Source: Chiridota heheva | Taxonomy: Eukaryota; Echinodermata; Holothuroidea; Apodida; Chiridotidae | Length of the DNA: 64,000 bases | Direction of reading: 5' to 3' | Assembly: GCA_020152595.1 (NCBI GenBank) | Contig: JAIGNY010001641.1 | Coordinates: 477,001-541,000, forward strand | Shown here: piece after piece, positions 5,747-60,280 of the stretch | Layout of the letters: each line of letters opens with the position of its first letter | Position numbering within the stretch: the stretch's first letter is position 1 | Notes under the pieces: model-generated | What the model was told of the DNA's origin: nothing | The model's database searches: none | The model's input: the letters and a program-made list of their open reading frames with translations, nothing else | Position numbers and translations under genes: made by a program

Positions 5747-7875
5747 ACTTAGACCCCAGGGTAAAGAGCTCTCTTCGCTTATAACATAGGAATTTACCAG
5801 AGGTGATCCTCCACATAGGAGGGGGTCCTCAATAATTTCAATGGGGGCAGGAACCCCAATAATCATTTGTAATTTTCATATTTTTGGTATATTTTAAATC
5901 ACCCCCGAGATTTAATTCATTTGTTCTCTTTATATGATAGCCTCGATCATGCAGTCTACAATTACAATTTTCTTCAGTTAGACAAAATTCAAAGTTTTTG
6001 TAACACATTTTCTATAATGGCCTACCCCCTTCCCCTTCCCCTCCACCTCCACCTCTTTGACTAGAATGGAAAATGTCCAGTCATAATTACTTGCATTACA
6101 TCTGATCAATGACAACTCATCTCCTGGCCTGATTTTAATATGTTATAAGCTGGCTTTATTGGATGTTGGCACTACTGGCTATTGTCTATTGGCCATACCT
6201 GAAAGGGGATATATTTATTTTATAACATTTTAGATAGTTAGGTTGCTCACTTGCATCATAAAACATTGGTAAAATCATAAATGTATTAAGACCTTCAGCT
6301 GTTCTTTATAAATTAAAAGTTCCCGTTTCATTCTCTTAATTTTGCAGTAACATTCTGTGTTAAATAGCCTACATTAAACAGTAGACTTTTTGGAGAATAT
6401 TATGAGTGCATTATTTCTTGACTTTGAGAGGGGTTCATTTTTTTGTATAAAAGGGCACTTCATTCCTGCACCTCAGAATTTTTTAATGGGAACGCGGCGT
6501 TCTACATCACTTTTTTCCCCGAAAGAAGGCTATACATTCATCAAATGGTCAGAACCATTCCGGTACTCCAACAAGCTTTGAAATTCTAAGTGCTTTTTAT
6601 GTATTTTAATTTCAAAAAGCACTTTCTCCAAAAAGGTGTTTTTTAGAGAAAAGTATGAAAATGTAAAATATCTGTTAGTAATATATTAACACTTTGTGTG
6701 ATACAATGAAGTAAGCCACTGAGACATAGAAGGGGAGGGGGCGGGATATAGAACACGTTTGTTTTAAAAGTTGTAAATATGTACACATCTTTATAGTAAA
6801 TTATTGGAAGCTTATCAAACATTTTTCTTTTAGACCACAGATTTTTTAAAGAGTGACCATAGACCTATTATATCCATGAACAGAAACATATATTTCAACA
6901 TTATGCATTTTATGATTTAGTTTTTTGTATATTGTATATTATATGTCTCTTTGACATGAATTTTGATTTGTATAATATACTTTCTTCCTATGTGTTGTAA
7001 CAATCTTTTTTGCCCTTCAAATGTCAATTTTGTGAGAGAACTTCTACCAAAGATCCTTAAGCAGATCCCTGGATCCCATGCCGAAAAAAAACTTGTCACC
7101 TTAACGGATCAATTTTTAAATGGATTTATGCCTCTTCAGTTCCCCTCCCCAAAAAAGTTGTTTTCCTTCCACTGCTGCTGCTCCACAGAGTATGTATTAT
7201 ACTTTAAGTAAAAGTAAAGGTCAAGTACGATACCTGTGGAGCTGAACCATGGTCCCAGACCATATAAATTGGCTTGCTCACCACCGCTCTTATTGCAATT
7301 TGAGGCTTACTCTAAAGTACAAGTGATGCTTGATGTCAAAACGCATCAAATTCTGAGTACAACAGTCTTCAGATTTTGTTAAGAGCAATTATTCTGTGTC
7401 ACTCGAGAGCAAATTAATTCCTTAGGGTAGAGAAGCGGTTGTTTGGTGAAGCTTAAGTGGAAAGTCACTTCTTTAAATTAGTGTACAATTATGCATTGTT
7501 ATTAGTGGTGTATGTGAAGAGTACAGTATAAGGATATATTGCATGTCTGTAAAACAGTTTTCCCTGAAGATTGGTCATCAAATGTTCTCCTGTAAGTTGA
7601 GGGCAGTATAAACTGCTTATATGTGTAGGTAGAAACCAGGGGTACATACAACCCTCTCCCCTTTGTGAGAAATGACAATACCCCTCTCAGCTTGTACTAA
7701 GTTTTGTGTTTGCAAGGAAGGTTTAGGAATTAAAGGTACAAAAAGCCCAGTCTTCCATATTTTTAGTTCCAGATATGCAAGAAAAATACTAACGAACAAC
7801 ATGCTTTGCACTTGGTCAGGAAGATTAGTGTAAAAAATGATAATGTGGGGGTGAAGTCACACAACTGGAATTAAA
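5747..7875. other. AT-rich non-coding stretch
   Basis: I see no domain, convincing exon or tandem array. Several short open frames (for example 6390-6581 and 6963-7211) lack recognisable motifs. This may be intron of the CUB-containing gene. Confidence 0.4.
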
Positions 7876-7880
7876 GCATC

Positions 7881-8492
7881 GTGGATTGGATGCTCAGTTG
7901 TCATGATTACCGCCAGAGGTATGGCCATGGAAAAAAAACTCCTGCCACAGCCAAGCGCGCTGTGGCAACTGGAACCTTGGACCATGACAGTGCACGCTCT
8001 TGCACCAACACCCCACTCTGCACCAATTGTTATGGTACTCACCCAGCCAACCATCTCTTCTCAAAAGACTGTAACACCTGGCTTCAGGAAGAACAGATAA
8101 CTAAACTGAAAACCTGTAATCCCAGCACCACTTACCCAAAGGCCAGGAAGCAATTCTTGCCTTCCCTCCACACCAAACCTTCCTACTCGAGCAACCTTCC
8201 TACTCGAGCAGTCTCCTCAAACACCAATACCCCCTCCCAAACACAACTAAAAGCTAACTCACATGCCCAAACCACCTGGCTCTTCTTACCAAGTCCTAAC
8301 CCATCGCCTTTGCCAACAACCCAACCATTTTCTAAGACCCTCCCAACCCCAACCCCTTTCCCCTCCCACCCCCTTCTTCCCATCGAACATACTTCCCATC
8401 CAATTTTTAAAAGCAACCACATCCAAAGAAAGAGGCACAGATCCAAAGAAAAAACAAGCCAACCCAGACACAAAAGATCTTCCTCCACATAA
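7881..8492 (+). pseudogene. LINE ORF1 C-terminal fragment (zinc knuckles)
   Basis: A 203-residue open stretch includes CTNCYGTHPANHLFSKDC, a CxxC-x4-H-type knuckle followed by W-x-x-E-x-x-I-x-x-L-K. That arrangement is typical of the last of several CCHC knuckles in ORF1 proteins of I/jockey-type LINEs. Two earlier knuckles are visible only by changing frame (YGHG near 7935, then a CHSQARCGN segment near 7946-7985), so at least two indels have broken the frame. The rest is Pro/Ser/Thr-rich with a basic end (KRHRSKEK). ORF1 proteins bind the element's RNA in the retrotransposition particle. The N-terminal half is missing here; a fragment of an ORF1 N-terminus lies at 61310-61741. Confidence 0.8.
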
Positions 8493-8506
8493 CCCAGTCC
8501 CTCTTT

Positions 8507-8941
8507 ATGGCGCACAACAGAAACAATTACAATAACACTCACAACATTATACAATGGAACATCAGGAGCGTTAAGGCCAACTTAAACAAAATTGACCTTC
8601 TGGCCACCACCTTTAACCCGGTCGTCTTCTACCTTCAAAAAACCTTCTTAAAAACTACTGATCATTATTCCGTCAATTGCTTCTGTCTACCATAAACATC
8701 AAGAGGATGCCGACAGGGCCTGTGGGGGTGTCTCCATTTTTGTTAGACACGATATCCCACACAGTCCTATTCATGTGAACACTGACCTTCAGGCCATCTC
8801 TATCTCCCTCCACAGAACCTCCACTCTTTGCACTATCTATCTCCCCACACTAATGTTCAGCCAACCAGCCTTAACAACCTCATCTCTCAGCTCCTCCTTT
8901 TTCATCCTTCTTGGTGATTTCAACACCCAAAAACCCCTGTA
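8507..8941 (+). pseudogene. LINE ORF2 endonuclease domain (APE type), broken
   Basis: The domain opens with IIQWNIRSVKANLNKIDLL (from about 8546), the usual start of APE-like LINE endonucleases, which nick the target DNA. After a stop at about 8695 a second frame (about 8704-8941) continues with CGGVSIFVRHDIP and FFILLGDFN, the conserved GDFN motif that carries catalytic Asp and Asn, and then ends at a TAG. Later parts of the domain (about 8941-9200) are scattered over different frames. The expected catalytic Glu sits in LQET in intact relatives; here the text reads LQKT, so that residue is lost as well. Confidence 0.85.
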
Positions 8942-9199
8942 GGGCTCCAATACCACCACCCCCAGAGGCAAGCTTTTCAAAAACACTCTTCGACAGCACG
9001 GCCTCTCCTTGCTCAACACTAACTCCCCCAAGCTACATTCACCCTGCCACTGGCTACCTCACCTGTATTGACCTGTCTATCTGTTCCCCCAACCTCCTCC
9101 TTGATTTTAGCTGGAAGGTCACTGCTGACCTCTGTGAAAGTGACTTACCCTCTCCTTATTCACTCCAACTTTCAAACCCCCACAGACCACACCCCCAAC

Positions 9200-11110
9200 T
9201 GGAACTTTAAGAAAGCCAATTGGCCCCATTTTGAAACCCTCTGCAACTCTCACCTCTCTCCCCATCTCCTCGAGGGTGAGGATCCCATGTCAAACTTCAG
9301 TAACATTCTTATCAAGATCGCCACCTGCTGTATTCCCCAAACCCTCTAATCACCACTTCCCCCTTCCCCCTCCTCCATGACTGCAAAACCGCCATCAAGA
9401 ACAGGAAAAGGGCCTCAGGAACTTCAAAACTAGCCCGACCACCCACAACCTCGAGCCTCTTTCGCATCAGTTGTGTCAAGGCCAGGCGCACTATCAAGGA
9501 CAGTAAAACCAAAACTTGAAACAACTTCATCTCATCTCTCATCACCAACACCCCCACCAAGAAGATTTGGAGAATGGTTAAGAGCTTTCATGGCAGTGTG
9601 GGTAAATCTCCCATCTCTCCTGAAATGGTAATTTTCTCACTGGAAAAAAGGATATCGCTAACTGCCTCACAGCCTCTATCAGCAATATCTTGTCCTTGGC
9701 CAACTACCCCAATGGTTTTAAAGCCAGAAAAGCTCATGACGAAACCCGGAGTATTACCTTTCCCTCCGACAACACCAAGAGCTACAACACTCCTCTCACC
9801 CTATCTGAATTAAAGCAAGCCATCCACGATGCTGGCTGCACCTCCAAGGGCCCAGATAGCATCCCCTGTCAGTTCCTGAAACACCTTCGCAACAAGGCCA
9901 CCGCTACCCTCATCACCATCCTTAACCAAATTTGGTCCTCACACTCCTTTCCTTCTATCTGGAGAACAGCTATCATCACCCCCTTCCCCAAACCGGGAAA
10001 GGACAGCACCTACCCCTCCAACTACCGACCCATCACTCTCACCTGCTGTCTCTGAAAAATTATGGAAAGGATCATTAATCAGAAACTAAACTGGTTCCTT
10101 GACACCAACAGAATTTTCTCCCCTCACCAAAACGGCTTCCGGAAACATCGCAATACCCTGGATCAATTAATCTCGCTTGACACCACTATTTGGGAATCCT
10201 TTGCAAAAAAGGAACACCTCACTGCCATCTTTTTCGACTTCGAGAAAGCTTTAGAAACTTTTTGGAAATACTGCTTTACCCGCAAGGTTCACACTGTTAA
10301 TCGCAGAGGCACCTCCCCATCTTTATTCAAAACTTCCTCTCACCCGGGCAGTTCCAAGTTTGTATTGGCCACACTTTCTCTCTTACCCCTACCCTCAAGA
10401 AGAGGGCATCCCCCAAGGCAGCATCCTCTCCCCTACTCTCTTCAACCTGAGCATTACAAAAATCACAGACAACCTTGGCCCCAACATCAAATGTGCCCTC
10501 TATGTGGAGGACTTCACCATCTTCTACTCCTCCCCTAGAATTTCTCTTGTTAAAAATAGGCTCCAACTTAGCCTCAACTGACTACAAGACTGGTGCAACA
10601 ATAACAGTTTTATATCCTCCAAAGACAAGACAATCTGCATGCACTTTTGTCATTTCAACAACCTCCACCCCAACCCGAACCCCATGCTCAATGGCAATTG
10701 CATCTCTAAAATTGACCACACTAAGTTCCTTGGTCTGACCCGAGACCCCAAGCTCTCCTACAAGCAAGACATCACGAGCCTGAAACAGAAATGCAACAGC
10801 TCCCCCAACATTCTCCTCCTCCTCTCCAACACCACTTGGGGTGTTCACCCCCATGCTCTCCTCAAAATCTTCATGCTCACCATTCGTTCCAAGCTTGACT
10901 ATGGCAATATTGTCTACTGTGCCGCTCACAACTTTTACTTCAATCACATCAACACCATCCAAAATGAAGCCCTCTGGATTTGCCTGTGTGCCTACAGGAC
11001 CTCCCATATCACCAGCCTTCACATTGAAGCCAACGAACCCCCCCCCCCCTCTCCCTTCCTGCTAAAGTTTAGAAAGCTTAGCCTTTCCTATGCTTTAAAG
11101 CCTGCACCAA
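9200..11110 (+). pseudogene. LINE ORF2 reverse transcriptase, broken
   Basis: Recognisable RT blocks in order: a WNFKKANWPHF linker segment (about 9200); KGPDSIPCQFLKHL; IITPFPKPGKD and NYRPITLT (9850-10040); HQNGFRKHRNTLDQL and FFDFEKA, the motif A region (10125-10250); a GQFQVCIG segment in another frame (about 10350); EEGIPQGSILSP (motif B, 10396-10433); YVEDF (motif C, 10501-10515). The thumb-like region then shows KFLGL, SLKQKCN and RSKLDYGNIVY. Motif C has Glu in place of the first catalytic Asp, so the enzyme would be dead even if the frame were repaired. In-frame TGA codons at 10053 and 10579 sit where relatives usually have a residue such as Trp, consistent with G-to-A decay. At least two frameshifts fall between 10260 and 10390. 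Confidence 0.92.
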
Positions 11111-11369
11111 CACCCAAAACCCTGTTCATAACCTCACTAGGTACCCCAATTTCTCCACCATCTTTGAGTGGACTAAAACCCTATCCCATCCCTTCAGCTT
11201 TTGCATCAAACCCGATTTCCACCATCTCGGCATCAACCCCGCCCCTCTTGGCACCTTCTCCTGCTCCACTTTTCTTCCCTGGGCCAGCCCATCCCTTCCA
11301 TCCACCTGGGCTTTTCCACTCATCACAAAACTCAAACCCACCCCAACCTTTTCATCAACCCCCACAACC

Positions 11370-11760
11370 AAATCAAAGACCAACTCTCAAACTACACCAT
11401 CTATATTGATGGCTCTAAGGAAGGCAACAAGACAGCTGCTGCTGCCGTCATCCAAGACATCACCCTCAGTAGCAGGCTTCCCAACTACTCCTCCATCTTC
11501 TTGGCCGAGGCCAATTAGGCCATCCTACTTGCCCTCAACTACTCCCCGCTCAGCCACTTTGCCATCTTCTCAGACTCCAAGTCTGTCCTTACTTCTTTAC
11601 TCAATCTGAAGTGGGATAACCCCATGTCCCACCTCCATAAACTCCTCCCCTGCAGCCTGCAGGAAAAGTATTATTTTCTTCTAGATACTCATCCATGTTG
11701 ACATCCACGGCAATGACAGAGCTGATTCAGCCGCTGAGCTTGCCCTCAACCTCCCCCTAC
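11370..11760 (+). pseudogene. LINE ORF2 RNase H domain, broken
   Basis: The frame reads YTIYIDGSKEGNKTAAAAV, then SSIFLAEAN with an in-frame TAG at 11517, then FAIFSDSKSVL and, after a frame change, HGNDRADSAAELA. These give the D-E-D-D pattern of RNase H (Asp of IDGSK, Glu of LAEA, Asp of SDSKS, Asp of NDRAD). Presence of this domain separates the element from jockey/CR1/RTE types and supports an I/Nimb-like assignment. All four metal-binding positions remain recognisable although the frame is broken. Confidence 0.85.
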
Positions 11761-11869
11761 CCCCTTTTTAAAACCCTTTCTGACATCAAACCATTTTATT
11801 GCTTTTCTTGTTCGTGACTGCTGGCCAACCTCATGTGACTCCCACATTGATAACAAACTCAACGACATC

Positions 11870-12437
11870 CAACCCACCATTCCAACCACCCACCATTTAC
11901 AATTTCTCCCGTATCGACAACATCCACATTACCCGCCTTAGAATAGGTCACACCCACCTCACTCACTCCCACCTCCTTACTGGCTCCCCCACCTCCTTAC
12001 TGGCTCCCCCACATTCCGCAACAATTGCAACAACAACCTCCCCAGAGCTTCCTTCACCCCACACAACTCTATACCTGAGCTCTCCAAAAAAAAAACTACG
12101 GATAAAATTATCTCCCTCCTTCATCATGCCTCCCTTTACAACCATATCTAGTCCTCTTCCACCCTCTCCACCTACATTTACCTCTTTTTCAACACCCCTG
12201 CACTTCCTCTTTCAATCCCAGCTTCCTGGCTTAGTCCCCATACTTCTCTCAGACTCCACTTATTTTCATTTCTTACTACCTTTGGAATGATCTTGAACCT
12301 CTCAGGCACAATTTGACCCTCGCTGTCGTGGTGCGTGAATCCCTTATCAAACAAACAATGGATGCTCAACATGACACTGCATGTGTCCATTACCAAGACT
12401 TTAATCTATTTAGTTGTGAATATGTATACCAGCAATA
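11870..12437 (+). pseudogene. LINE ORF2 C-terminus and 3' region
   Basis: RIDNIHITRLRIGHTHLTHS (about 11912-11971) matches the RLRIGHT-x-LTH motif that follows RNase H in I-type elements. A 21-bp direct duplication around 11970-12012 (CTCCTTACTGGCTCCCCCAC repeated) has been added. The remaining stretch is degenerate and C-rich to about 12300, then fades into AT-rich 3' sequence. The end of the element is set at the hAT target duplication only as a practical limit. Confidence 0.65.
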
Positions 12438-15826: not shown

Positions 15827-16417
15827 CTTTAAAGTATTAGTTCAGAGGTCAAGCAAATTCATTGTATATGAAAGAGGACTTCAAAAGAACCAAATTGGTG
15901 AAGAAAGCATTTAAAAATCTTATTCTGTTAAGAAGATAATTTAAATTTAAATTTTGGTATCATTTGTGTAGAAATGACTGAAATCAGACTAGTTGTGGTG
16001 TCATAGCCTCAGATTCATCAAAGTCTAAATTGATGTATTCTATCACATTTTGTCTTGGGATTAGGTGGTTTAACAACCATTGGATATGTCAGGAAATTAG
16101 TCAAACTGAATCTAGCAAAGGTAATGATAATTAACCACCTAAGAAAGTCAGAGGAAAATACTTAAAATAGTAAAAACATCATTTAAATTTTCTTTAATAT
16201 ACATTAACAATTGTTAAGAATGTGAGGATGCAGATGCCAACTTTTCATAGGAGACTTACTTCACCAGTCATTTCTACACAGATAAGACAGAGCTTTAAAC
16301 TTTAATATCTCCTTAATGGAATAAGATAATAAAGTAGTTTCTTCACCATTTTGTTTCTTTTGAAATCCTCTTTCTAATGAAATAAACTTGCTGGACCACT
16401 GAACTAATGATTTAAAG
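15827..16417. mobile_element. MITE with long terminal inverted repeats, copy 1
   Basis: About 190 bp at each end are inverted copies: TTTAAA..ATTAGTTCAG, GAGGACTTCAAAAGAA, TGGTGAAGAAA, ATCTTATTC and GTGTAGAAATGACTG recur in order when the right end is reverse-complemented. No coding capacity is visible. Further copies or halves lie at 16764-17308, 19013-19190, 39605-39775 and 50720-50890. I found no clear target duplication. Confidence 0.8.
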
Positions 16418-16763: not shown

Positions 16764-17308
16764 CTGTTAAAGCATTAGTTCAGGGATCAAGTAAATCTAT
16801 CAAATATGAACGAGGACTTAAAAAGAAACAAAATGAAAAAGCATTTAAAAATAGTATTCGGTTAAGTTTAAATTCTGTATCATCAGCAAAAAGGAATGAA
16901 ATTATACTAGTTGCGATGCCACATTTTCAGATTCCTCAGCATTATGTATGTATTCTATTATATTTTGTTTTGTGATTTGGTGGCGTAAAAACCATTGGGG
17001 ATTGAGTAAAGTAGTGAAATAGAATCTATCAAGGGAAATAATATAATCTAACAGCTTTCTTAAGAAAGTTCAAGTAAAAACACTTCAACACTAAAAGAGT
17101 TAAGAAGAATGTGAAGGTGAGGGGCCAATCTTCCATAGTGGACTTACTACACAACTCATTTACAGATAAGAAAGGGCTTTAAACTTGAATGTCTCCTGAC
17201 AACAAAAAAGATATTGAATGATATAGTTTCTTCACACTTTGTTTCTATTAAAATCTATTTTCATATAAAACAATTTAAATAAACTTGTACGACCACAGCT
17301 AATTATAG
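16764..17308. mobile_element. MITE with long terminal inverted repeats, copy 2
   Basis: The left arm (GCATTAGTTCAGGGATCAAG, GAGGACTTAAAAAGAAAC) and the reverse complement of the right arm (TTAATAGAAACAAAGTGTG, TTTAAAGCCCTTTCTTATC) are diverged inverted copies of the family at 15827-16417. It lies in the same orientation, about 350 bp downstream. Confidence 0.7.
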
Positions 17309-18957: not shown

Positions 18958-19012
18958 TAACCCTTACAATACAGAAAAACTAGCTTGCAGCAAGCTTGTG
19001 ACAAGCTTCATT
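18958..19012 (+). repeat. Fragment of TACCCTTACAG-type word element
   Basis: ACCCTTACAATACAGAAAAA is followed by TAGCTTGCAGCAAGCTTG, nearly the same as the end of the insertion at 54487-54623 read on its minus strand. It abuts a MITE half at 19013. Confidence 0.6.
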
Positions 19013-19190
19013 TTCAGACAGGAATTTGATGATGTGACATCAAAACTTGGCAATTTCAGTTCAAATTATACTAAACTTCATCTCCTTAATAGAATAAGAC
19101 TTGAATGCTTTCTTCACCATTTTGTTTCAGTTAGAGTCCTCTTCAACATAACTCCATACAAAGATGAAGCAAATGCTTTGACCACTGAAA
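19013..19190 (+). mobile_element. Half copy (right arm) of the long-TIR MITE
   Basis: ATCTCCTTAATAGAATAAG, TTCTTCACCATTTTGTTTC and ACCACTGAA occur in the order seen in the right arm of 15827-16417. The left arm is absent. Confidence 0.6.
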
Positions 19191-24720: not shown

Positions 24721-24739
24721 CTTGGTGGGGCTTAATATG

Positions 24740-25460
24740 ATTTTGCTGAAAAGAGCTTGCAAACACGATATCTAAAGAACGAGAAACTGGATTCAAGTCA
24801 TGTGGTACACAGATAGGTCATGGTCCATAGATGTTCCGTATTGTTTTTGTGGCAATGTCATGCATATTAATGAGTAAGCTGGAGCTTAATGTAAAAAATT
24901 TGAAATGCTCATATTATAACAACCACATGTATGTTTTGTTTCATATTTGGTACAGTTATGATGTTTGCTAATGTGTACATGTTCATGGTATCAAAACACT
25001 TAATTTCATCAATATGCATAGTGGGCAGAGCTTAATATGATTTGCTGAAAAAGGCTTGTAATCATGGTATCTTAAGAGATAATGTGAAACACAAATAGCC
25101 CATGGTCTGGATGTGCCTTATTGGTTTTGGTGGTGATACCATGCATATTAATGAGCAGGCGGGGCTTACCTAAAACTCTTCAAACATGATACCCCCGAGT
25201 AACCGTATGTCTGTTTTTCATCATACTTGCTATGATGTTGTTAAGTTATTGTGTCATGCTAGTGTTGTCAATAGGTATGTCTATTTTATTGATCTGCATC
25301 ATGCATGGTGGCCATGGCTTATAAATATATATATTCTGGAACAAATGTTTCATGATATTCAATGACACGACAGTTAATACAAAACTCGCAAATCAATCAG
25401 CATATGAAAAAAAAAAGCATCGGAATCACAAAGCCTTTTGGTTCTAGTTGAAATTCTACT
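24740..25460 (+). repeat. ~295-bp satellite, locus 1 (about two units)
   Basis: Units contain GGTACACAGATAG..CATGG, CATGCATATTAATGAG, GTGTACATGTTCATGGTATC and GTGGGCAGAGCTTAATATGA. The array ends with TTTCATGATAT, AATCAATCAGCATATG and CCTTTTGGTTCT, the same edge as at 55085-55195. No coding potential was recognised. Confidence 0.85.
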
Positions 25461-25847
25461 GAAAACGGGGCTTGACATTTTTTCCCCTTTCCCCATGGAA
25501 TTACTGTTCTGCTTTCACAGATGAACATCTTTGACCTCCAAAATTATCCTTTACAAAAAGTAACAAATCTTGAGAGCAGACGCTAGCCTGTACATCTTCT
25601 AATCACAGGGGAGCACCCTTTTATCATTTTGTCCTGAAGACTTTTACAATGGTGCCTCTTAGGTTTTAAGGTAAATTATGGGTTTGTGGGAATTAAGAAA
25701 AGAGAATGTGACATACCGTACCCGGGTGACATATTTCTAAGGTCGACTTGTAACTTCTATCTTATCTTAGTTCTTAGCAACTCTCTGCTTCTATTATGTT
25801 TTAAAGGCCTCTAAAGTCTGAAAAGTGATTTGCATGAATTTTTGCCC

Positions 25848-26080
25848 CATGTGAGACTTCAGCTATTTAGCTGATTTCAGCTATTTTCCAAGCTAATTTA
25901 ACCTATTTTCTGGATAATATACAATACTTAGCTATTTTGATGAGAAAATTGATCAATTTCAGCATGTGAGACTTCAACTATTTAGCTAACTGCAGCTATT
26001 TTCCAATCTAATTTTACCTATTTTCTGCATAATTGACAATACTTGGCTCTTTTGATGAGAAAATTGATCAATTTCAGCTA
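25848..26080 (+). repeat. 116-bp tandem duplication
   Basis: CATGTGAGACTTCA.CTATTTAGCT begins two adjacent copies, each ending GATGAGAAAATTGATCAATTTCAGC. Within each copy CAGCTATTT words also recur. Confidence 0.9.
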
Positions 26081-26582
26081 CTTTTATAAATCATCACTCA
26101 CATGTCGTCTGTAGCTATAGTATGTCCCTACAGATTAAAATGACTAAGGATCAGTGCAGTATATTTATGAGTGCATAATCAAAATATGCTCTTTATTTTG
26201 TTGTAAAAACAAATACTGCATCAGTGGGAATTTAAGTAAATGCAAGAATAATTGTTTTTTTGTATAACTTTTATACACACATGAATTCACAGTCAAATGT
26301 AAGAAGATAGTCGGAAGAAGTGAGGGTCCTACCCTCCTCTCCCCCTCTCAAGTTTTGGACATGGATATCAAAAGTACCCCTCCCCTATTTAGATACTCAG
26401 GGGTTATACATTATATTACATATGACATCATCAAATGAATGTTGTGTATGGGCTCATTTCGCAAAAAAGCAAGATGATTATTCTAATGAAGAAGACCATT
26501 GTTTGCTGTCATGTCTCCAGAATTTTTGTAGTTGTATTTATGTCTTTATCATTCAATGAACTTACATATATTGCAAAAAATC

Positions 26583-28490: not shown

Positions 28491-28506
28491 TATGCAAATA
28501 TCTTGT

Positions 28507-28533
28507 GTATATATATATATATATATATATATA
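28507..28533. repeat. (TA)n microsatellite
   Basis: Short pure TA tract directly before the word element at 28541. Confidence 0.9.
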
Positions 28534-28540
28534 GTATTGA

Positions 28541-29003
28541 TATACCCTTACAGAAATGGTGAGCTTGTCGCGAGCTCGTATTGAACCTCTTTGACGAGCT
28601 CGTGATGAGCTCATCAAAATGTTACAAACTAGCTCGCATCAAGCTCGCAAGTGAAACTTTAACGAGCTCATAACATTTCCTTGACGAGCTCGTTTTTGGC
28701 CAAAATGGCGAGCTAGTCAATATGGCTAGCTCTTTGAAATGGGGAACTCGTCAAACTAGCAAGCTTGTCACAGGATCCAGGAAAGAAAACAAGCTTATAT
28801 TGTATCCCTGACGACCGCGCCGCGAGCTCCTAATTGGAACCTTTACGAGCTCGTCATATAATGACAAGTTCGTCATGCTCATGACGAGCTGTGAACTCGT
28901 CAAAGTGGCGAGCTCATCAGAGCATCCAGGAAAAATGAGCTCGTCACGAGCTCGTCAGGGAAACAAGCTTGCCGCGAACTCATAAGGGAAATGAGCTTAC
29001 AAA
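28541..29003 (+). repeat. Word element: TACCCTTACAG end plus GAGCTCGTCA words
   Basis: It starts TACCCTTACAGAAATGG. GAGCTC, CGAGCTCGTCA, AAGCTTGTC and one-base variants recur about 25 times at irregular spacing, so the segment is dense in short palindromes. Filler such as TTGGAACCTTTACG is shared with the 54487-54623 insertion (CTATTTGGAACCTTTTTA on its minus strand), where the words are instead CAAGCTTGCG-like. No open frame. The right edge is approximate. Confidence 0.7.
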
Positions 29004-29430
29004 TTCGAAAGTATGAATATTGTATATTTCATGTTTAACATAAAAAAGTAAGTTTTTTCCAAATGGCAGAATGAATTGCATCCTTATTTGCAGAACGAGT
29101 TGGCACTGTCGTGCTGAAAAGGAAAACATCATCACTTCTTGTAACTGTTTAAAACATACTTTTGTTAAAAGTATATCTTTCCCAAATATCTTTTTTGAAT
29201 AGTTCTGCTCTGTAAGTTTTCACTGTGGAAAAAAAAGCACAAAGGAAATATACACACAAAACTCTTATAGGCTCAAAAATAAGGCCTTCTGTCTCACAAT
29301 ATTAAATAGGGTAGATACTAAATACAAAATAAGGTCAATAACAATCATGAGAAAATAATCATCTTTACCAGGAATGGTCCATCAATCATTCATGGGTTTT
29401 GCACAAATCCTCCCATGACGACGACGACGA
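29004..29430. other. AT-rich DNA without recognised features
   Basis: Ends with a short (GAC)n run at about 29417-29430; nothing else recognised. Confidence 0.35.
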
Positions 29431-29690
29431 GTGAACACACAATTACAATGACGGGGTCATCGCCTGCATATTCAGTTATGATAGTAACAATGCTGTCACG
29501 AATTGCTTAATACGACCCGGGCGAGAACACAGGTACGACGTACGGACAGATATAACTTCGACAACCAAGTCAATGTCCACGGCCTTTGATAACCAGTTGT
29601 GGTACACTGGCGTGTCTACCCAACCCAGGCTTGAACCCAGGGCCTCGTGGTCTGTAGACAGGTATAATAAACGCTACACCACAATAGGTA
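29431..29690 (-). mobile_element. tRNA-derived SINE, intact copy
   Basis: On the minus strand a tRNA-like head has a box A-like GTGGTGTAGCG (about 29672-29682) and a box B GGTTCAAGCCTGGG (29625-29638) at tRNA spacing. It is followed by about 190 bp of body ending near the (GAC)n run. A second copy with the same backbone lies at 45174-45520. Pol III transcription is inferred from the boxes only. Confidence 0.7.
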
Positions 29691-30334
29691 GATACAAAGT
29701 CCTCCCAAGCATATAATGTATATTTATATTTAGGATTAGTCAAGAACTTATCTGATCATAGAGCTTCCACACATGGAGAGTGGACAATCTAAAACGTTTA
29801 TATCAATGAGAGTAGCCGCCGTCGTAAAACTCCCTAAATCACTTATCAGAAGTCGTAAATAATCCCGGAAAAATCCTCATTAAATCAATTCACAACATGC
29901 GCTTTGACATCGCTCTCGTGGAGATGGCCCGCTTACGTAATAGGTGTACCAGCTTGTGTGTAACGCATCGTATATACACAGTACATTTATACTGAGTGTG
30001 TCCAGCTGTTTTAAACTCTGTACTGTTAGATAGGCCTACATTTCTTGGCAGTTTTAGTTACTAAAGTAAACAATATTCAGGCTTAAGAAAATGGCATACG
30101 GAAAAGAAAAGAAGCTTTTCTTCTGACTTACCATATCACATGTACCCAGGCAAATGTCTTCTACCACTTTTCAACAGAATTTCAAAAAAATTAGTACATT
30201 TTGGGGAAAATTTGCCTCCTGTCCCCACACTCTTTTTTTTTTTTTATAAGAGGCCTCCCCACCCCCTCCCTTCCACACACACTTTCCAAATGAAGCCCTA
30301 ATTGCCAAACATTATGTAGGCCTAACATTAGCTG
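29691..30334. other. AT-rich DNA with a diverged inverted repeat end
   Basis: GAGCTTCCACACATGG at about 29761 is the reverse complement of CCATGTGTGGAAGCTC at 37187, with partial similarity beyond. This suggests remnants of one family. Nothing else recognised. Confidence 0.35.
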
Positions 30335-34010: not shown

Positions 34011-34525
34011 GTCCAAACAGCAGAAGGCATCCAAACAGCTGAAGACATCCAAACAGTAAAATGCATTTAAACAGCAGAAGGCATCCAAACAGCAGAAGGC
34101 ATCCAAACAGCAGAAGGCATCCAAACAGCAGAAGGCATCCAAACAGCATCAAACAACAGAAGGCATCCAAACAGCAGAAGGCATCCAAACAGCAGAAGGC
34201 ATCCAAACAGCAGAAGGCATCCAAACAGCAGAAGGCATCCAAACAGCAGAAGGCATCCAAACAGCAGAAGGCATCCAAACAGCAGAAGGCATCCAAACAG
34301 CAGAAGGCATCCAAACAGCAGAAGGCATCCAAACAGCAGAAGGCATCCAAACAGCAGAAGGCATCCAAACAGCTGAAGGCATCCAAACAGCAGAAGGCAT
34401 CCAAACAGCAGAAGGCATCCAAACAGCAGAATGCATCCAAACAGCAGAAGGCATCCAAACAGCAGAAGGCATCCAAACAGCAGAAGGCATCCAAACAGCA
34501 GAAGGCATCTAAACATCAGAAGGCA
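34011..34525 (+). repeat. 18-bp minisatellite (about 28 units)
   Basis: Unit CAGCAGAAGGCATCCAAA, very homogeneous from about 34070 to 34520. The unit length is a multiple of three and lacks stops in nearly all frames, so long open frames appear on both strands (KASKQQ repeats on +, and Cys/Leu/Phe-rich on -). I see no splice sites or flanking coding sequence, so I do not call a gene. Confidence 0.97.
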
Positions 34526-37500
34526 TCCCTTCTGAGACACAGTACCTTTGTTAGTTTCAAGAAAATGCATTTAAATTAAAGACTTCCAGGAATTGAAAAT
34601 CCCTTTTTAAGGAAAATATCAATTGTCCAAATAATGATATGCCACCAATCCTACAAAAAGTGTTAATACACTCAAGGGGTGATCTTTAAATCCCCTGCCC
34701 ATGCTGCAACCAACAAATGTCCTGAAAGCTGATGCTTGGATATCATTTTAGTAAACATACACATGAAAGTGAATATAAAGCTAAATTTTTTTTTTTTTAC
34801 CTCAAGCCTTCCAGGTTATGCTCTTTAAATTTTGTTCACAGAGATGACAAAGAGACCTCAAAATGAGATGATGCATTTCCATCTGAAATAAAGAAAATAA
34901 TGAGGCAAAATACTGAATGATTTATCATCTTTACAGTATGTACAAATTCTGTGCTCACAGAGTGGTAAGAGTTTAGTAATGGCCAGAAACTTAGCCTATT
35001 TATCATATGATTTACTAAAATGATAACTACTGCAATATGTTTTGTACAAATGATTACACAGATCAAATGATCACAAATGATTATAGAGTATCTCTGAACA
35101 AATGCTGTACATACATGTACATGAAAATTGATAACTTGTAAATGACTTCTGCAGTTAAAATGCATTGCTATTCTTACAGTAACGACAGTTGATATGGACA
35201 ATTTAAACACAATAAGATGGCAGGGATTCAAATGCGCAAGTTCACACAAGAGAGCCTTCCTTGGAATGATAAATCTGAAATGCGACTGCATTTTAATAAA
35301 GTGCATTTTGTTTATACAACTTTTTCTCCAATTCACCCCTATTTTTCCACTTTTTTATAAATATGATTAAGACCCACTTGATCAAATTGAAACAAATCAT
35401 CCTGGTGGGATAAATTAGGATGAACTTTAGAAGCAGGTTCACTCTCGAAAAATAATCAGATTCATGAACTTCCGAGGTGAAGGATGTAATCTTATCAATT
35501 ATTAAAGAATCTTTTGTGTAATCTTATGGCTCCCATGCAGTATCTTCGGCTACAGTAGCATTAAAGTTGCATGGTCGAGCATTGTACTAATCTTAATAAA
35601 AGAAAGATGCATATTTATGTTGGAAGAACTTATTATGTATGTCCAAACTATGATGGCATATCCCTGTTAGCTGGGCAGCAAAATTGCAAGGCCACCAGCT
35701 GTACTAAGATAGCTTAACTATAAAATGATGCATATTTTTTTGTATGTATTACATATCATGTACATCTGCTTAAAAATCATGCAGATATCCCCACTTTCCT
35801 CCTTGCTATGAAAACACATTTTTATACCAGCTACACTTATTGTTCAGAGATTAATTGGTTCTGTAAACAATTATCCACTCAATAATTATATTTATTGTGC
35901 ATTAGTGACATTAACGGTCAATGTTTGTCAATTGTTTGTTTTACTGAACTGCCGGAATTGGCCAAAAACGGCGATTGGGGAATAAATGAGATGTACACAA
36001 CATGCATAATAGAGTAAATGGAGTATGACACAAAAATTACAGCCTGAAACTATTTAACTACGCCTCTCTTTCATTTTAAACCTAAAGTTATTATTTTTAT
36101 GCCACGAAGTGCAGTAACACATCATAGAAAGATGATATGCAAATTCTTTCCTCAATTTTAAAATGAGAGCCAAAATATTGCATGCAAAAAAAAAAAGGGT
36201 AGGCCTACGCCTATTTCCCATTGTGTATTGAATCATTGTTTTGTAGGCTAAATGAAAATAAATTAAGGGAAATTTCTTTTGCCTTAGCCTGCACAAACTT
36301 CTGAGCCACATTACTACAGTGCATCACAACTGTAGTAATTTTTAAAAGAATCTTGCATACGATCACCATATGTACATGTACATGTAGCTTCAATTATTTT
36401 GACCTAGAATTGGTCCAAGTTTTTCTTTTCTTAGGCCCAAGGCCTATCCTGGCACACTATCTTGACGAAGTAAGCACTGCAATATTAACACCAGTAGGCC
36501 CTAGTATCAGTATCACTTTCTTGGCCTTCAATTTTTGATCTTATTCCTACTATTTTAAAACTCAGTTATTCAACAGCAAAAAGTAGTTGCCATGGAAACA
36601 ACCTGAAAATCTTACCAAAAAGTGCCCCAAAAAAGTGTGAGTTTCTTGATTAGACAACATTGCACACATACAAGCACTGTCTGTAGTGCATAAAGAAAGG
36701 TAAACAAGCCAACTTGACCCAGCGTCATTTGCAGGAACCTGCAGGAAATAATCCAAAAAACACAATTTAGGCAAGCTATTTTCCAAAATTTGCTGAAATT
36801 AGTAACTGAATGTCACCAATAATATTAAGATAACTTATCGTTAAAAAATGTGATCGATTTCAGGTTTTTTTTCAGTACTTTTGTAACGACTTGCTCTACA
36901 ACTGCACATGACTTTCATTGAGAAACTACAGTAAAATACACACTGCGCAGCCATATAACGTAAGGCACAGGTCACTTCAAAATGACCTGAGTATAGTAAT
37001 GACGTCATTTGCTGGCTTGCTCTAGCACTCTCAGCGGCTACACACATTGTTGGAAAGGGACTTTTATGGGGCCCATGGAATGTGGGTTTTGAGTGAATCT
37101 GCTGAGGATTAAGTTAGAGCCGTGTAGGGTTTTTTTTGTAGGTGTTTCCTTGCTGGAGGCTACGCTTTACGACCGTCAGCTCTCCCATGTGTGGAAGCTC
37201 TTTGATCTGATTCACAAAGATTTTATTAGTAGCAAGAAAGTTTCATAAATTATGTCAGAATGTCAAGCATATGGCTGTACAATTCATTCTTTTGGGAATT
37301 TTCTTCAGTCAGTATCCCCCATCGGTAACATTAGGCCTAAACTGATGAAAGCTTATACTATACCATATATGGTATGGGTATACAGTAAAAAACTAGCCTA
37401 ACGTAGGCCCTTACTAGTAGTGCTACTGTACTACGAACCAGTTACGGTACCGAAATAGAGACAAGAAAACAATTATATTATCCCCACCTAAAGAAAACTA

Positions 37501-38521: not shown

Positions 38522-38961
38522 AACATCACTTTACAAGCATGTGGCATCAGTGATCAATAACTTGATTTCTGCATAATAAACAATAAATGCATGTTGTCAA
38601 ACAAGATTATCATAGAATAATTTCTTCCAGTAAGAAAAAAGTTTTTCCTGGCTGGCCTGCAATTGTCAGCACAAATTCATCATGAATATGCAAGGCTGCT
38701 GTAATACTCGATTACTGTACGAATGTTTGTAACTGGATGCTGCAAATAATTAAGCAGTTGTAAATTAAGCCCTTTTCGAAGAAATAATTTGTCCTGTTAT
38801 CAGTGAAAACATTGGAACAGTGAAATCTGATCTAGAACCGTATTATTTGAGGCAAACAATTTAAATTTCCACCCCTGTACATGCATACTTAAATGAAAAT
38901 GAAACTTTTGTTGTGCCATGTTTTATGAGCTCAGCAAAATATATATAGAGAGCAAATATAG

Positions 38962-39037
38962 CAGTGGTATAGAAACGAGGGGTAGGGGGGACTGGGGGAC
39001 TTAGTCCCCTAGCTCACAATTTAGCTGTACACCACTG
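38962..39037. mobile_element. Tiny hAT-like TIR element (76 bp)
   Basis: CAGTGGTATAGAAACG at the left and CAGTGGTGTACAGC as the reverse complement of the right end. Flanking 8-mers do not match. It is probably an internally deleted hAT MITE. Confidence 0.4.
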
Positions 39038-39096
39038 GAGTCAAGTTATGATTCCAACTACAAATATGTTGTTTACACAGAACTAATGCTGTTTGG

Positions 39097-39418
39097 AATT
39101 TAAAGAGGCAATTTCGTCGCAAAACAAATCATAGATAGTGGTGTCATACATTGCAGGAGCTGTCCTTGGCGAAATCAATTTGTTGCCAAATAGCTTCTAT
39201 ACTCACAATAAAAATGCAGAAAAATTTAGAATAAAACTAAAAATGATAATTAATGTATTTTAATGGTAATTAGTTGATATATTGCATCTGTTAAGCATTT
39301 CAATGAGACTAAATTAACGTTGGCAATTTGTGTGTATTTAAAAAGTGTAAGATCCTAGAATTTTAGTTTTGTACTGTGTATTTGTAGTTGATGGTGATAT
39401 TGCTCGGTCCTTTAAATT
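39097..39418. mobile_element. TIR element (about 322 bp), TTTAAAG ends
   Basis: The left end AATTTAAAGAGGC and the reverse complement of the right end (AATTTAAAGGACC) are inverted. The left subterminal AATTTCGTC parallels the CGTC of the element at 14520. No coding. Confidence 0.5.
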
Positions 39419-39604
39419 AGGCTCTTTATAGGTGACCATAATACAGCTAGGATCGGTTAGTGCACAAACTATAATAGCGAACTTTGAAGATATTTTATGG
39501 ATTTAATTGTTTGCTAGACACACAAAAAGAATGAGGGATTGAAAATACATGTGTTTGTTTCATAGAAATATAAACATAAGTACTTTGAGAAATGTGGGGA
39601 TGTG

Positions 39605-39775
39605 ACATCACTGCTAGGCTGATTTCAGTCATTTCTACACAAATGAGACTACTATAAACTTGAATATCTCTTTTATTAACAGAATGAGATATTGAAATGC
39701 TTCCATCGCCATGTTGTTTCTTTTGAAGTCATTCTTTTATATAAGATGAACTGGCTCATCCAGTAAATTAAAGTT
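39605..39775 (+). mobile_element. Half copy (right arm) of the long-TIR MITE
   Basis: GATTTCAGTCATTTCTACAC, ACTTGAATATCTC, AGAATGAGATATTGAAATGC and TTGTTTCTTTTGAAGTC follow the right-arm order of 15827-16417. Confidence 0.6.
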
Positions 39776-43454: not shown

Positions 43455-44710
43455 AACCAATAGTGTTGGGTTGAGGCTCTGTGTTGGGTTAAGGCTCTTG
43501 TGTTTGGTTGAGGTTCTGTATTGGCTTGAGGCTCTGTGTTTGGTTGAGGCTCTGTTGGGTTGAGGCTCTGTGTGGGGTTGAGGCTCTGTGTTTGGTTGAG
43601 GCTCTGTATTGGCTTGAGCTTCTGTGTTGGGTTGAGGCCCTGTGTTGGGTTGAGGCTCTTTTGGGTTGAGGCTCTGTGTTGGGTTGAGGCTCTGTGTTTG
43701 GTTGAGGCTCTGTGTTGGGTTGAGGCTCTGTGTTGGGTTGAAGCTCTGTGTTTGGTTGAGGCTCTGTGTTGGGTTTAGGCTCTGTGTTGGGTTGAGGCTC
43801 TGTGTTTGGTTGAGGCTCTGTATTGGCTTGAGCTTCTGTGTTGGGTTGAGGCTCTGTGTTGGGTTGAGGCTCTTTTGGATTGAGCTCTGTGTTGGGTTGA
43901 GGCTCTGTGTTTGGATTGAGGCTCTGTTTGGGTTGAGGCTCTGTGTTGGGTTGAAGCTCTGTGTTGGGTTGAGGCTCTTGTGTTTGGTTAAGGCTCTGTT
44001 GGATTGAGGCTCTGTGTTGGGTTGAGGCTCTATGTTGGGTTGAGGCCCTGTGTTTGGTTGAGGCTCTGTTGGGTTGAGGCTCTGTGTTGGGTTGAGGCTC
44101 TGTGTTGGGTTGAGGCTCTGTGTTGGGTTGAGGCTCTGTGTTGGGTTGGGGCTCTGTGTTGGATTGAGGCTCTGTATTGGGTTGAGGCTTTGTGCTGGAT
44201 TGGGCCTCTGTGTTTGGTTGAGGCTCTGTGTTGGGTTGATGCTCTGTGTTGATTTGAGGTTTTGTGTTGGGTTGAAGCTCTGTTGGATAGGGCCTCTGTG
44301 TTTGGTTGAGGCTCTGTGTTGGGTTGAGGCTCTGTGTTGATTTGAGGCTTTGTGTTGAGTTGAGGCTCTGTGTTGGATTAAGGTTCTGTATTGGGTTAAG
44401 GCTCTGTGTTGGGTTAAGGCTCTGTGTTGGATTGGGCCTCTGTGTTTGGTTGAGGCTCTGTGTTGGGTTAAGGCTCTGTGTTGGGTTGAGACTCTGTGCT
44501 GGATTGAGGCTTTGTGTTGGGTTGAGGCTCTGTATTGGATTGGGCCTCTGTGTTTGGTTGAGGCTCTGTGTTTGGTTGAGGCTCTGTGTTGGGTTGGAAG
44601 TTCTGTATTGGGTTGAGGCTCTGTGTTGGGTTGAGGTTCTGTGTTGGTTTGAGGCTCTGTGTTGAGTTGAGGCTCTGTGTTGAGTTGAGGCTCTGTGTTG
44701 GGTTGAGGTT
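43455..44710 (+). repeat. 18-bp minisatellite (about 70 units)
   Basis: Unit TGTTGGGTTGAGGCTCTG with variants (TTTGGTTGAGG, TTGGATTGGGCC). Larger blocks repeat too, for example the run ending TATTGGCTTGAGCTTCTG at about 43610 and 43825. Open frames (RLCVGL repeats) are artefacts of the 18-bp period. Confidence 0.97.
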
Positions 44711-45173: not shown

Positions 45174-45562
45174 GTGAACACACAATTACAATGACGCTTG
45201 CAGGTGCAGACGCGTTTCGCCCACGTTGCTTGCAGGCGTTCTTGCAGGCGGTTATGATAGTACAAATGCTATCAGACATTGCTTGCAGACATTGCTTGCA
45301 GACATTGCTTGCAGACATTGCTTGCAGAGAACACAGGCACATTGGCAGACATTGCGGACAGACATAACATCGACAACCAAGTCAATGTCCACGGCAGACA
45401 TTTTGATAACCAGTTGTGGTGCACTTGGACATTGCCTACCCACCCCAGGCTTGAACATTGCTTGCAGGGCATTGCGTGGTCTGTAGACAGGTATAATAAC
45501 CATTGCTACAGACCACAGTAGACCATTGCTAGTAGACCATTGCTTACAGACCATTGCTTGTT
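45174..45562 (-). mobile_element. SINE copy interrupted by a minisatellite motif
   Basis: The backbone follows 29431-29690: GTGAACACACAATTACAATG, GGTTATGATAGTA, AGAACACAGG, ACAACCAAGTCAATGTCCAC, TTGATAACCAGTTGTGGT, CCAGGCTTGAAC, GTGGTCTGTAGACAGG. Between these blocks CATTGCTTGCAGA or parts of it (AGACATT, ACATTGC) are inserted or substituted at roughly eight places, including a four-unit tandem at about 45274-45328 and one copy inside box B. The tRNA-like head is therefore destroyed. The motif continues to about 45562. Confidence 0.8.
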
Positions 45563-50719: not shown

Positions 50720-50890
50720 TAAAGGATTAGTCAGTGGTCAAGCATGTCCATCTTATATGAAAGAAGACTATAAAAGAAACAAAATGGTGAAGAAAGCATT
50801 CAAAAATCTTATTCCATTAAGGAGATATTTAAGTTTTAAGTTTGGTATCATTTGTGTAGAAACGACTAAAATCAGGCTAGTTCACAGAGT
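50720..50890 (+). mobile_element. Half copy (left arm) of the long-TIR MITE
   Basis: GATTAGTCAGTGGTCAAGCA, AAAAGAAACAAAATGGTGAA, CTTATTCCATTAAGGAGATA and GTATCATTTGTGTAGAAACG follow the left-arm order of 15827-16417. Confidence 0.7.
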
Positions 50891-53759: not shown

Positions 53760-55200
53760 TGTGTTTGTGATGGCCAGCTCGTAAACGCTATATCTTAAGA
53801 ACTGTATAACTGGATTCATGTCATATGTGGTACACAGATAGCCCATGATCCATAGATATGCCCTATTGTTTTTGACGGTGATGCCATGCATATAATGAGT
53901 AGGCGGGGCCTAATGTAAAAATCTGGAAATGTTGATATTTTAACAATCACATGTCTGTTTTGTTTCATAATTAATACAATTATGATGTTAGCTGGTGTGT
54001 ACATGTTCATTGTGTAAAAACATTGAATTTCATTAATATGAGTAGTGGGTGGGGCTCAATATGATTTTGCTGTTAAGAGCTTGTTAGCACGGTATCTTAA
54101 GAACGGTAAACTAGATTTATATCATATTTGGTACACAGATGGCCCATATGGTCCATAGATGTGCCTTATTGTTTTTGGTGGTGTAATGCATATTAATGAT
54201 TAGGCTAGCGTAATGTACAAATCTGGAAATGCTCATATTCTTAAAAACACGTTTTGTTTCATATATGGTATGATAATGATGTTAGCTAGTATGTACATGT
54301 TCATGGTATAAAATTGATGACTATTTTTAATATGCACACTGGGCGGTACTTAATATGATTTTGTAAACAAAAAGCTTGTAAACATGATATTTCAAGAACT
54401 ATGCACTGGATTCACATCATATTTAATGCACAGATAAACCATGGTTTATAGATGAACCGTTTTGTTTTTAGTGGTGATGCCATGCAAAGCTTGCGCAAGC
54501 TTAAAAAGGTTCCAAATAGTAGCTTGCAGCACGCTTTGCGCAAGCTTGCACACGCTTTGAATTGTTAGCTTAAAATGTTAGCCCTCCGCAAGCTTGCTGC
54601 AAGCTAAAATTTCTGTAAGGGTATTATTAAGTGGACGGGGCTTAAAGTGAAAATTTGAAATAATTGATAAGTGAGCAACTGTATGTCCGTTTTGTATCAT
54701 ACTGGGCATGATAATATAGTTGGTTATTGTGTACATGCCTATGCTATCAACAGATGTTAATAATATGCATAGTGGGCATGGCTATGTGAAAGTGCAAAAT
54801 GATATAAACACCATATTTCATGAAGTGTATATTGGATTTATGCCAAATGTGGTACACAGATGGGTTTTGGTCTGTACATATGTTCTGATGGTAATGTAGT
54901 GATGTCATGAATATTAATGAGTAGGCTAGGCTTACTGAAAAGTTTTTGAAATAGGATAAATGAGCAACCATTTTTTGCATCATACTTGCTATTATGTTGT
55001 TAGTTATTGTGCAAATGCTAATGTTGTCAATCTTTTTATTAATCTGCATGGTGGGTGTGGCTTATGAATGAATATTATGGAACAAATATTTCATGATATG
55101 CAGTGACATGACAGTTGGTACAAAACTTACAAATCAATCAGCATATGGAAAAAGCATTGGAACCACAAAACCTTTTGGTTCTGGTTATGAGGTTGTAGAG
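53760..55200 (+). repeat. ~295-bp satellite, locus 2 (about 4.5 units)
   Basis: TGGTACACAGAT or its variant recurs at about 53829, 54130, 54426 and 54851. The last interval is 425 bp because a 137-bp element is inserted; without it the period is 288 bp. Other shared blocks are TGCCATGCATAT, GTGTACATGTTCAT and GTGGG.G.GGCT. The array closes with the same TTTCATGATAT..AATCAATCAGCATATG edge as locus 1. Confidence 0.9.
54487..54623 (-). mobile_element. 137-bp word element inserted in a satellite unit
   Basis: It interrupts the satellite text CATGCA|TATTAATGAG. Read on the minus strand it begins TACCCTTACAGAAATTTTAG and then holds many AAGCTTGC/GCAAGCTT and GCAAAGCGTG words with filler including CTATTTGGAACCTTTTTA. 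It shares the TACCCTTACAGAAAT end and the TTGGAACCTTT filler with 28541-29003. The opposite end has no TACCCT, so it is not a simple TIR element, or it is truncated. Confidence 0.75.
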
Positions 55201-56135
55201 TTGTGGCATGGAATATGCCTGCAGCCATTCAAAATATTAATCTTTAAGGAGAACAAAATCAAAGATATCCGAGCTCAATTTTTTCTTCTTCCTTCTTATT
55301 CTCACCAATGTGAAAAAATCCTCTTGCCTCACTAATGACTTTGTTTGTCATATTTTCCACGTCCATGCTCCCAATCAGGAGATCTCCTGATTGCAGATCG
55401 AGGCATATGAGCAGTGACCATAATTTAAACTGTTGTTAATAAGTTAAACCGTTAAAAATGTTTTGCTTTTCAAATTCTGTAATTCTAAAGTTGCATATTT
55501 TACAAATGTTATTGAAAATAATATTTCTGTAAAATGTTAAAAATCTGCTCTTTCAGAAGTAATTCAAATTATTTTGAAACATTACTCTTAAAACTCCCTG
55601 GTGAAAGTCAAATATCAATAAAAATTTAATATTTTGCATGTGTTTTTTCTACCTTTGGCCCAAACTTATTTTACCATTATGTATTTTTTTAGAGAGATTT
55701 GAATTTGGAAAGATGCATTGTGGGTCATAATGACAATCAATCTCACATTTGGGTGCAAAATTGGACTAAACTGATCTATTAAGATGGGATGACAGCTAGT
55801 GGTACCAAGCTGGGGGGAAATCCCCCTAGAATTCTGCACAGATTATGTTTACTGCTTTATGATATATCAGTCAAGCTCTTTTGCATTTACAATACATTTT
55901 GTACTTTCTTTTTGAGATATTGAGCCTGCTCTTACAGTTATCATTGTGTTGTATTGGTGTTTTAAGTTTTTTCTTGAAATAAATAAATATGAATAAAACT
56001 GAAATCTGCACTCCCTGTAATTGCCACTGTTATCAAGTATAGATTGTGTAAGAAATTATTGTCTTTATAGTTGCATTTCATTACACATTTCCCATTCAGC
56101 TGTCTTCTCTTGTATGCCATTTTTACCCCTTATAA
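55201..56135. other. AT-rich DNA without recognised features
   Basis: Nothing recognised. Confidence 0.35.
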
Positions 56136-57062
56136 TAACCCTTTCTATTCAAAATAACCCTTCTCATTTAACCCTCCCATTCAAAATAACCCTCCCATTC
56201 AAAATAACCCTCCCATTCAAAATAATCCTTCCCATTCAAAAATAACCTTTCCCATTCAAAATAACCCTTCCCATTCAAAAATAACCTTTCCCATTCAAAA
56301 TAACCCTTCCCATTTAAAAAACCCCTTTCCATTTAAAATAACCCTTCCCATTCAAAATTACCCTTCCCATTCAAAATAAGCCTTCCCATTTCAAATATCC
56401 CTTTCCATTTAAAATAACCCTTACCATTCAAAATAATCCTTCCCATTTGAAATAACCCTTTCCATTCAAAATTACCCTTCCCATTCAAAATAACCTTTCA
56501 AATTCAAAATAACCCTTTCCATTCAAAATAACCCTTTCCATTCAAAATATTCCTTCCTATTCAAAATAATCCTTTTCTACTCAAAATTACCCTTCCCATT
56601 TAGAATAACCCTTCCCATTCAAAACAATCCTTCCCATTCAAAAATAACCCTTCCCATTTAAAATAACCCTTCCCATTCAAAATAACCCTTCCCGTTCAGG
56701 ATGACCTTCCCATTCAAAATAACCCTTCCCATTCAAAATAACCCTTGACATTTAAAATAATCCCTGCCATTCAAAATAATCCTTGCCATTCAAAATAACC
56801 ATTCCCATTCAAAATAACCATTCCCATTCAAAATTACCCTTCCCATTGAAAATAACCCTTTCCATTCGAAATAACCCTCCCATTCAAAATAACCCTTCCC
56901 ATTCAAAATAACCCTTCCCATTCAAAATAACCCTTCCTATTCAAAATAACCCCTGCATTCATAATAACTCTTGCCATTCAAAATGACCCCTCCCATTCAA
57001 ATAATCCTTCCTATTTAAAATAACCCTTCCCATTCAAAATGGCCCTTCCCATTCAAAATGCC
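56136..57062 (+). repeat. 19-bp minisatellite (about 48 units)
   Basis: Unit CCCTTCCCATTCAAAATAA with point variants throughout. Confidence 0.98.
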
Positions 57063-59781: not shown

Positions 59782-60280
59782 CAAAATATGAACAAAACGG
59801 CTGCGGAATATAAAATGACTCTTTGAAAGGATTCGCTGCAGTCCTTATAAAGATATTCTTAATTTGATTTGAAGATTTTCTGAATGAATGCATAATATAC
59901 ACAGTGTATTTAAGTGTAACAAACTTGTCATGTGTTTCTTTTACAAGAGTAATTTCGAGGTCTTTGTATTGCAAAATAATTTTTTGAATAAGCTTCAGTT
60001 TCATGTATTTGTTTTTTATGTCAAGCATATGGTACATACAGCTCTAGATGTGAATTTTAAAAGTGTTAAAAGTACAGCAAACCACTGCTATTGAATTAGA
60101 AAACAAGAATTTCAATATAATTCACTCACAAGATTTAATAAAAGTTTATTTGTACTGTATGTTTTTTATTAGATTTAATATTTACGCAATACAAGTCATT
60201 GTTACAGGATGCAAAATGTTTACAAAATTATTTTTTTCTTTGCAAAATATGAACAAAACGGCTGCTGGACGTCTATAAGC
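59782..60280 (+). repeat. Segmental duplication, copy 1
   Basis: TTTGAAAGGATTCGCTGCAG, CACAGTGTATTTAAGTGTAA, GGTACATAC.GCTCTAGATG and AACAAGAATTTCAATATAAT recur in copy 2 about 850 bp downstream. GCAAAATATGAACAAAACGG also occurs twice, at about 59781 and 60241, on either side of this copy. Confidence 0.9.

Follow-up and report, generated by a model that had tools for sequence, protein, structure and literature searches.

Three copies of unequal size in the window, by which we mean the whole 64,000-nucleotide stretch of DNA that was analysed, are best read as diverged members of one non-autonomous interspersed element whose short palindromic words came to differ through parallel CpG decay, a reading to which we give a probability of roughly 0.56. 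The words of the copies seem to differ mostly through mutation of the same CG letters, and the pattern appears to be an ordinary one. All comparisons below concern these three copies in this one window, and their coordinates and those of the neighboring repeats are collected in Table 1.

Table 1. Positions of the three copies, their internal blocks and the surrounding repeats in the window
Feature	Position	Strand	Remarks
Copy 1, long copy	28541..28998	+	head, then about 24 irregularly spaced words; right end inferred from last AGCTT word
Copy 1 head, common to copies 2 and 3	28541..28583	+	
Copy 1 first internal unit	28663..28784	+	directly duplicated at 28823-28933
Copy 1 filler block	28816..28852	+	homologous to copy 2 54497-54533 (minus)
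Copy 1 second internal unit	28823..28933	+	
Copy 2, 137-138 bp insert	54487..54624	-	words of form GCAAGCTTGC
Copy 2 filler block	54497..54533	-	homologous to copy 1 28816-28852
Copy 3	18958..19008	+	head and three AGCT words (18982, 18993, 19004); right end inferred
Host repeat array holding copy 2, tandem-like, units roughly 300 bp	53776..55186	.	three units without copy 2 give the empty site
Second array of copy 2's host repeat	24721..25449	.	two units with empty site CATTAATATGCATG
Dispersed repeat members	15865-15953, 16296-16372, 16807-16935, 19021-19151, 39591-39744, 50753-50826	both	

Judged by sequence, the three copies appear to form one family with a common backbone, a kinship that is supported and that rests on the head. 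This head is about 40 bases long and reads ATACCCTTACAGAAAT and then AGCTTGYnGCRAGCTYG; in copy 3 it is degenerate and carries a 5-base insertion. An earlier note on this DNA had reported that position 28541 and the minus strand of 54487-54623 begin alike, and they do: TACCCTTACAGAAAT is exact in copy 1 at 28543-28557 (plus strand) and in copy 2 on the minus strand from 54623, and with the words masked the heads of copies 1 and 2 still match 15/15 (0/400 filler shuffles as good; 88/400 on the opposite strand). Two further claims, that both copies contain the same filler and that a third fragment lies at 18958, are likewise borne out, the one by a colinear block that includes the TTGGAACCTTT filler (36 bp, 78%, E 0.003 to 0.012, words included) and the other by held-out profile searches, in which any two copies recover the third (E = 0.0077 for copy 1, 8.6e-6 for copy 2 and 1.9e-4 for copy 3 with its degenerate head). 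When copy 1 was the one held out, a further word region within copy 2 was the sole better match besides the two training heads. Pairwise same-strand scores exceed the maximum of 300 shuffles for copies 1 and 2 (22.5 vs 17) and for copies 2 and 3 (27.5 vs 18); copies 1 and 3 score 17.5, no better than shuffles (maximum 18 in 300). Opposite-strand alignments of copies 1 and 2 (18.5 vs 17) and of copies 2 and 3 (20.0 vs 17.5) also beat shuffles, because the words are palindromic. We also read a region of TGTACA words around 34851 and saw no head there.

Copy 2 interrupts a repeat of its host. Since five paralogous units provide the empty site (two with CATTAATATGCATG and three with a single change from it), copy 2 can be delimited as an insert of 137-138 bp without visible target duplication. 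It lies between TTAATA and TGCATG, and no target-site duplication was seen there. A terminal inverted repeat is also absent from this copy, whose ends, TACCCTTACAG... and ...AAGCTT, do not form an inverted pair; its 3′ end is a 16-bp palindrome, AAGCTTGCGCAAGCTT. Next to copy 3 stands one member of a dispersed repeat that occurs on both strands and has a conserved stretch near CTTTCTTCACCATTTTGTTTC. To the right of the copy, the alignment of this repeat starts at 19008, 19012, 19020 or 19022 for four of the five members that were compared and at 18976 for the remaining one; to the left, the neighboring dispersed family does not align across the border.

The words of copy 1 are much denser than chance would give, with 10 exact GAGCTC (mean 0.31 and maximum 3 in 2000 shuffles) and 20 AGCT cores (mean 3.64 and maximum 10 in 2000 shuffles). 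Four near-words besides these cores bring the number of degenerate words to about 24, and their consensus is TGACGAGCTCGTCA, with a CpG on either side of AGCT. The earlier count of about 25 GAGCTC words stands if degenerate words are included and falls to 10 for the exact hexamer, and the uniform word that had been proposed for each copy gives way in copy 1 to a mixture, as AAGCTT occurs three times (28761, 28791 and 28965) alongside GAGCTC. Among the 40 flanks of the 20 AGCT cores, CG occurs 18 times, TG or CA 14 times and other dinucleotides 8 times, with TG and CA equally frequent on either side (TG 4 and CA 4 on the left; TG 3 and CA 3 on the right). At the other 209 AGCT sites of the window, CG stands on the left three times and on the right once, and three other AGCT clusters (25750-26100, 38950-39300 and 60200-60520) are without CG-flanked words.

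If the copies derive from one element, how did so many of their words come to differ together? In methylated repeats, CpG decay changes CG to TG or CA at fixed sites in one copy after another. The loss of methylated CpGs through mutation is described in the abstract of PMC8857923. The three copies resemble such repeats in the change from CG to TG/CA at fixed positions and differ from the usual case in the setting of the decaying CpG pairs, which sit within a repeated palindrome, so that their decay looks like a word switch. The source element would have borne many palindromic CpG-bearing words, with a core of CGAGCTCG and, in the best-preserved copy, the consensus given above. After insertion these CpGs would have been methylated, as CpG depletion suggests, and would then have decayed to TG or CA; since the CpGs of every word occupy one and the same pair of symmetric positions, such decay would convert GAGCTC to AAGCTT all along a copy, without homogenisation. 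As CGAGCTCG with both CpGs decayed inward is CAAGCTTG, a conversion that CpG deamination brings about, we infer that parallel decay, with methylation as its cause, accounts for much of the word switch. The earlier argument that ordinary divergence could not change many words in concert fails on this point, since all words share CpGs at the same two positions.

The composition of the window and the alignment of copies 1 and 2 are consistent with CpG decay. Across the window, the observed-to-expected ratio of CpG is 0.355, with TG at 1.33 and CA at 1.22. Over 75 aligned columns, copies 1 and 2 differ at 9 of the 18 CpG columns of copy 1 (8 transitions) and at 8 of the 57 other columns (3 transitions; Fisher p=0.003), a contrast inflated by the fact that the two aligned blocks contain the words that first drew attention. 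Where copy 1 has an aligned CpG (nine cases), copy 2 reads TG four times, CA twice and CG, TA and AG once each. Within copy 1, the first internal unit has CAAGCTTG where the second has CGAGCTCA, in an otherwise much alike stretch (7 differences in 41 bases), and we read this difference too as parallel decay. Methylation decay can mimic concerted evolution where a repeated motif has CpGs at fixed symmetric positions, which is a trap for reading word switches as homogenisation. CpG-rich stretches of this CpG-poor window are found at 28501-29200 and 29201-30000 and also near 14601, 21201 and 32401, and the 15 richest 400-bp intervals have 15-24 CpGs each, vs a median of 4.

Several observations fit decay poorly. 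The 20 word flanks of copies 2 and 3 comprise 12 TG/CA, 8 others and no CG, and all 12 of the TG/CA flanks run CA-left/TG-right, none outward. As decay should give TG-left/CA-right as often as CA-left/TG-right, these one-way flanks count against it (one-sided p ~0.002 for nine sites, with three possibly shared by descent dropped). Copy 2 also keeps five CpGs outside the word flanks (p=0.13, a rough count). The base just outside the CpG is T 11 and C 3 on the right side in copy 1 vs T 1 and C 5 in copies 2 and 3 (p=0.018), and on the left A 11, G 6 and T 1 vs A 1 and G 5 (p=0.069 without the T); since this outer base is not a CpG site, its difference is unexplained by decay. Within copy 1, the two internal units form a direct duplication (64% over 126 columns, E 4e-6 with words), a symmetry weakly supported once the words are masked (11/400 shuffles as good). 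At CpGs unique to one unit in a 105-column alignment, the other unit reads CA twice, AG once and CT once, so that just half fit CpG decay.

Together, the one-way flanks, the retained CpGs, the outer base and the half-fitting units make a subfamily with its own master word the main rival to decay. There would then be two subfamilies, each with its own master, a CGAGCTCGTC lineage represented by copy 1 and a GCAAGCTTGC lineage represented by copies 2 and 3, and the difference between them may go back to CpG decay in a master that was later fixed, or may reflect a change in a word-binding protein. Such lineages would account for flanks that all point one way with no CG left, for the CpGs that copy 2 retains elsewhere and for an outer base shifted in the same sense on both sides, and copies 2 and 3 have the exact run TAGCTTGCAGCAAGCTTG in common. 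We nevertheless hold this explanation to be unlikely, if a serious one, as AAGCTT words and both outer variants are present in copy 1 itself, copy 2 reads TG or CA at six of nine homologous CpGs of copy 1, and copies 2 and 3 together have only 10 AGCT words, some of them shared by descent. It is conceivable, and in our judgment improbable, that whole word arrays were replaced between source lineages (CGAGCTCG to CAAGCTTG, the outer base too) in interspersed elements that lack both terminal inverted repeats and target duplication, a change that CpG decay in a methylated master would have started and that the binding protein would then have followed. If the one-way bias of copies 2 and 3 held genome-wide, it would be a sign of real word switching in source elements.

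The earlier note had instead proposed, as one option, that a copy homogenises its own words, for which gene conversion or slippage would be the mechanism. The duplication inside copy 1 indicates that local copying has occurred, but the words of that copy are mixed and grade from CpG to TG/CA, one word differs between the duplicated units though nearby filler is kept, and there is no covariation within words, the left and right halves of one word matching at 0.417 vs 0.431 for different words; we find homogenisation very hard to credit. We think equally little of a foldback or hairpin element, be it a DNA hairpin or a structured RNA, in which selection would have favored pairing of the entire strand with itself. 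As single-stranded DNA, copy 1 folds far better than shuffles (z -8.46; 0/100 as good) and has inverted similarity within it (64% over 131 columns, E 6e-4, words included), and the ends of copy 2 are paired in predicted minimum-energy folds. However, the z scores are -1.80 for copy 2 (10/200 shuffles) and -1.12 for copy 3 (18958-19006; 25/200), Rfam has no match in the window at gathering scores, and the filler is not inverted once the words are masked (302/400 shuffles as good in copy 1, 237/400 in copy 2). On these masked comparisons we rejected a foldback element with long inverted repeats that contain the filler, and since the masked filler lacks inverted symmetry, the fold of copy 1 is most simply a by-product of its palindromic words.

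What kind of element carries these words? It is likely a non-autonomous interspersed element with the words as putative protein-binding sites; the word arrays would most likely serve a putative mobility protein. The plant elements Ac/Ds and En/Spm combine terminal inverted repeats and target duplications with subterminal arrays of words to which the transposase binds. The present element is like them in repeating one short word many times at irregular intervals and unlike them in that copy 2 is without terminal inverted repeats or target duplication, and for want of both features copy 2 does not match a DNA transposon with terminal inverted repeats, or a MITE. Canonical Helitrons have 5′ TC and 3′ CTRR ends and insert between A and T. 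Copy 2 does not match this class either, as its ends are not TC/CTRR in either orientation, although the A/T target fits.

Excerpts of a study of HINE, DINE-1 and Helentron elements describe subterminal repeats that are palindromic (in HINEs), a palindrome close to the 3′ end, copies of which some have internal repeats, and empty sites without target-site modification (PMC4067079). In the same excerpts, the 12-15 bp palindromic subTIRs of HINEs lie some 2-4 nt from the 5′ end, and HINE insertions have two or more Ts on either side (PMC4067079). Measured against these excerpts, the element is similar in its palindromic repeats, the palindrome at its 3′ end, its internal repeats and, for copy 2 with its five empty units, the lack of target-site modification. 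It differs in that the flanks of copy 2, TTAATA and TGCATG, are without two Ts on each side, in that the first AGCT lies 18 nt (copy 2) or 19 nt (copy 1) from the first T of TACCCTTACAG, and in the number of words in copy 1, about 24.

The pattern ACCCTTACAGAAA N{2,8} AGCTTG matched 3 viral-contig and 11 prokaryotic-genome stretches, which we take as chance, since 14/14 are without a word array and have 1-4 AGCT in 320 bases. AGCTTGCNGCAAGCTTGCNGCAAGC gave 0 matches in viral contigs, and the paired GACGAGCTCGT pattern matched five viral contigs, as a pattern match alone. Among titles and abstract starts from a literature search by topic, which are no proof of absence from print, none of those listed describes this family; of six sequences sought in print, one was matched, in one unrelated paper.

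Elsewhere in the window, 7875-12290 (plus strand) is a stretch of retrotransposon-like ORFs of the non-LTR type. Two of its six ORF pieces match Pfam RVT_1 (10056-10581), one with E 1.7e-5, below the curated cut-off, and one with E 7.3e-9, above it; 10 other ORFs have no Pfam match. Together with the simple repeats and the CpG depletion, this non-LTR retrotransposon suggests a eukaryotic, animal-like host. An 18-bp minisatellite of about 70 copies at 43463-44708 has long open stretches in more than one frame, and arrays of 18- and 19-bp units are present at 34012-34528 and 56134-57059. Finally, 29431-29687 and 45174-45521 are related (73% over 233 columns), with an exact 23-base run at 29431 and 45174, and the latter stretch overlaps or adjoins 13-14 bp tandem arrays.
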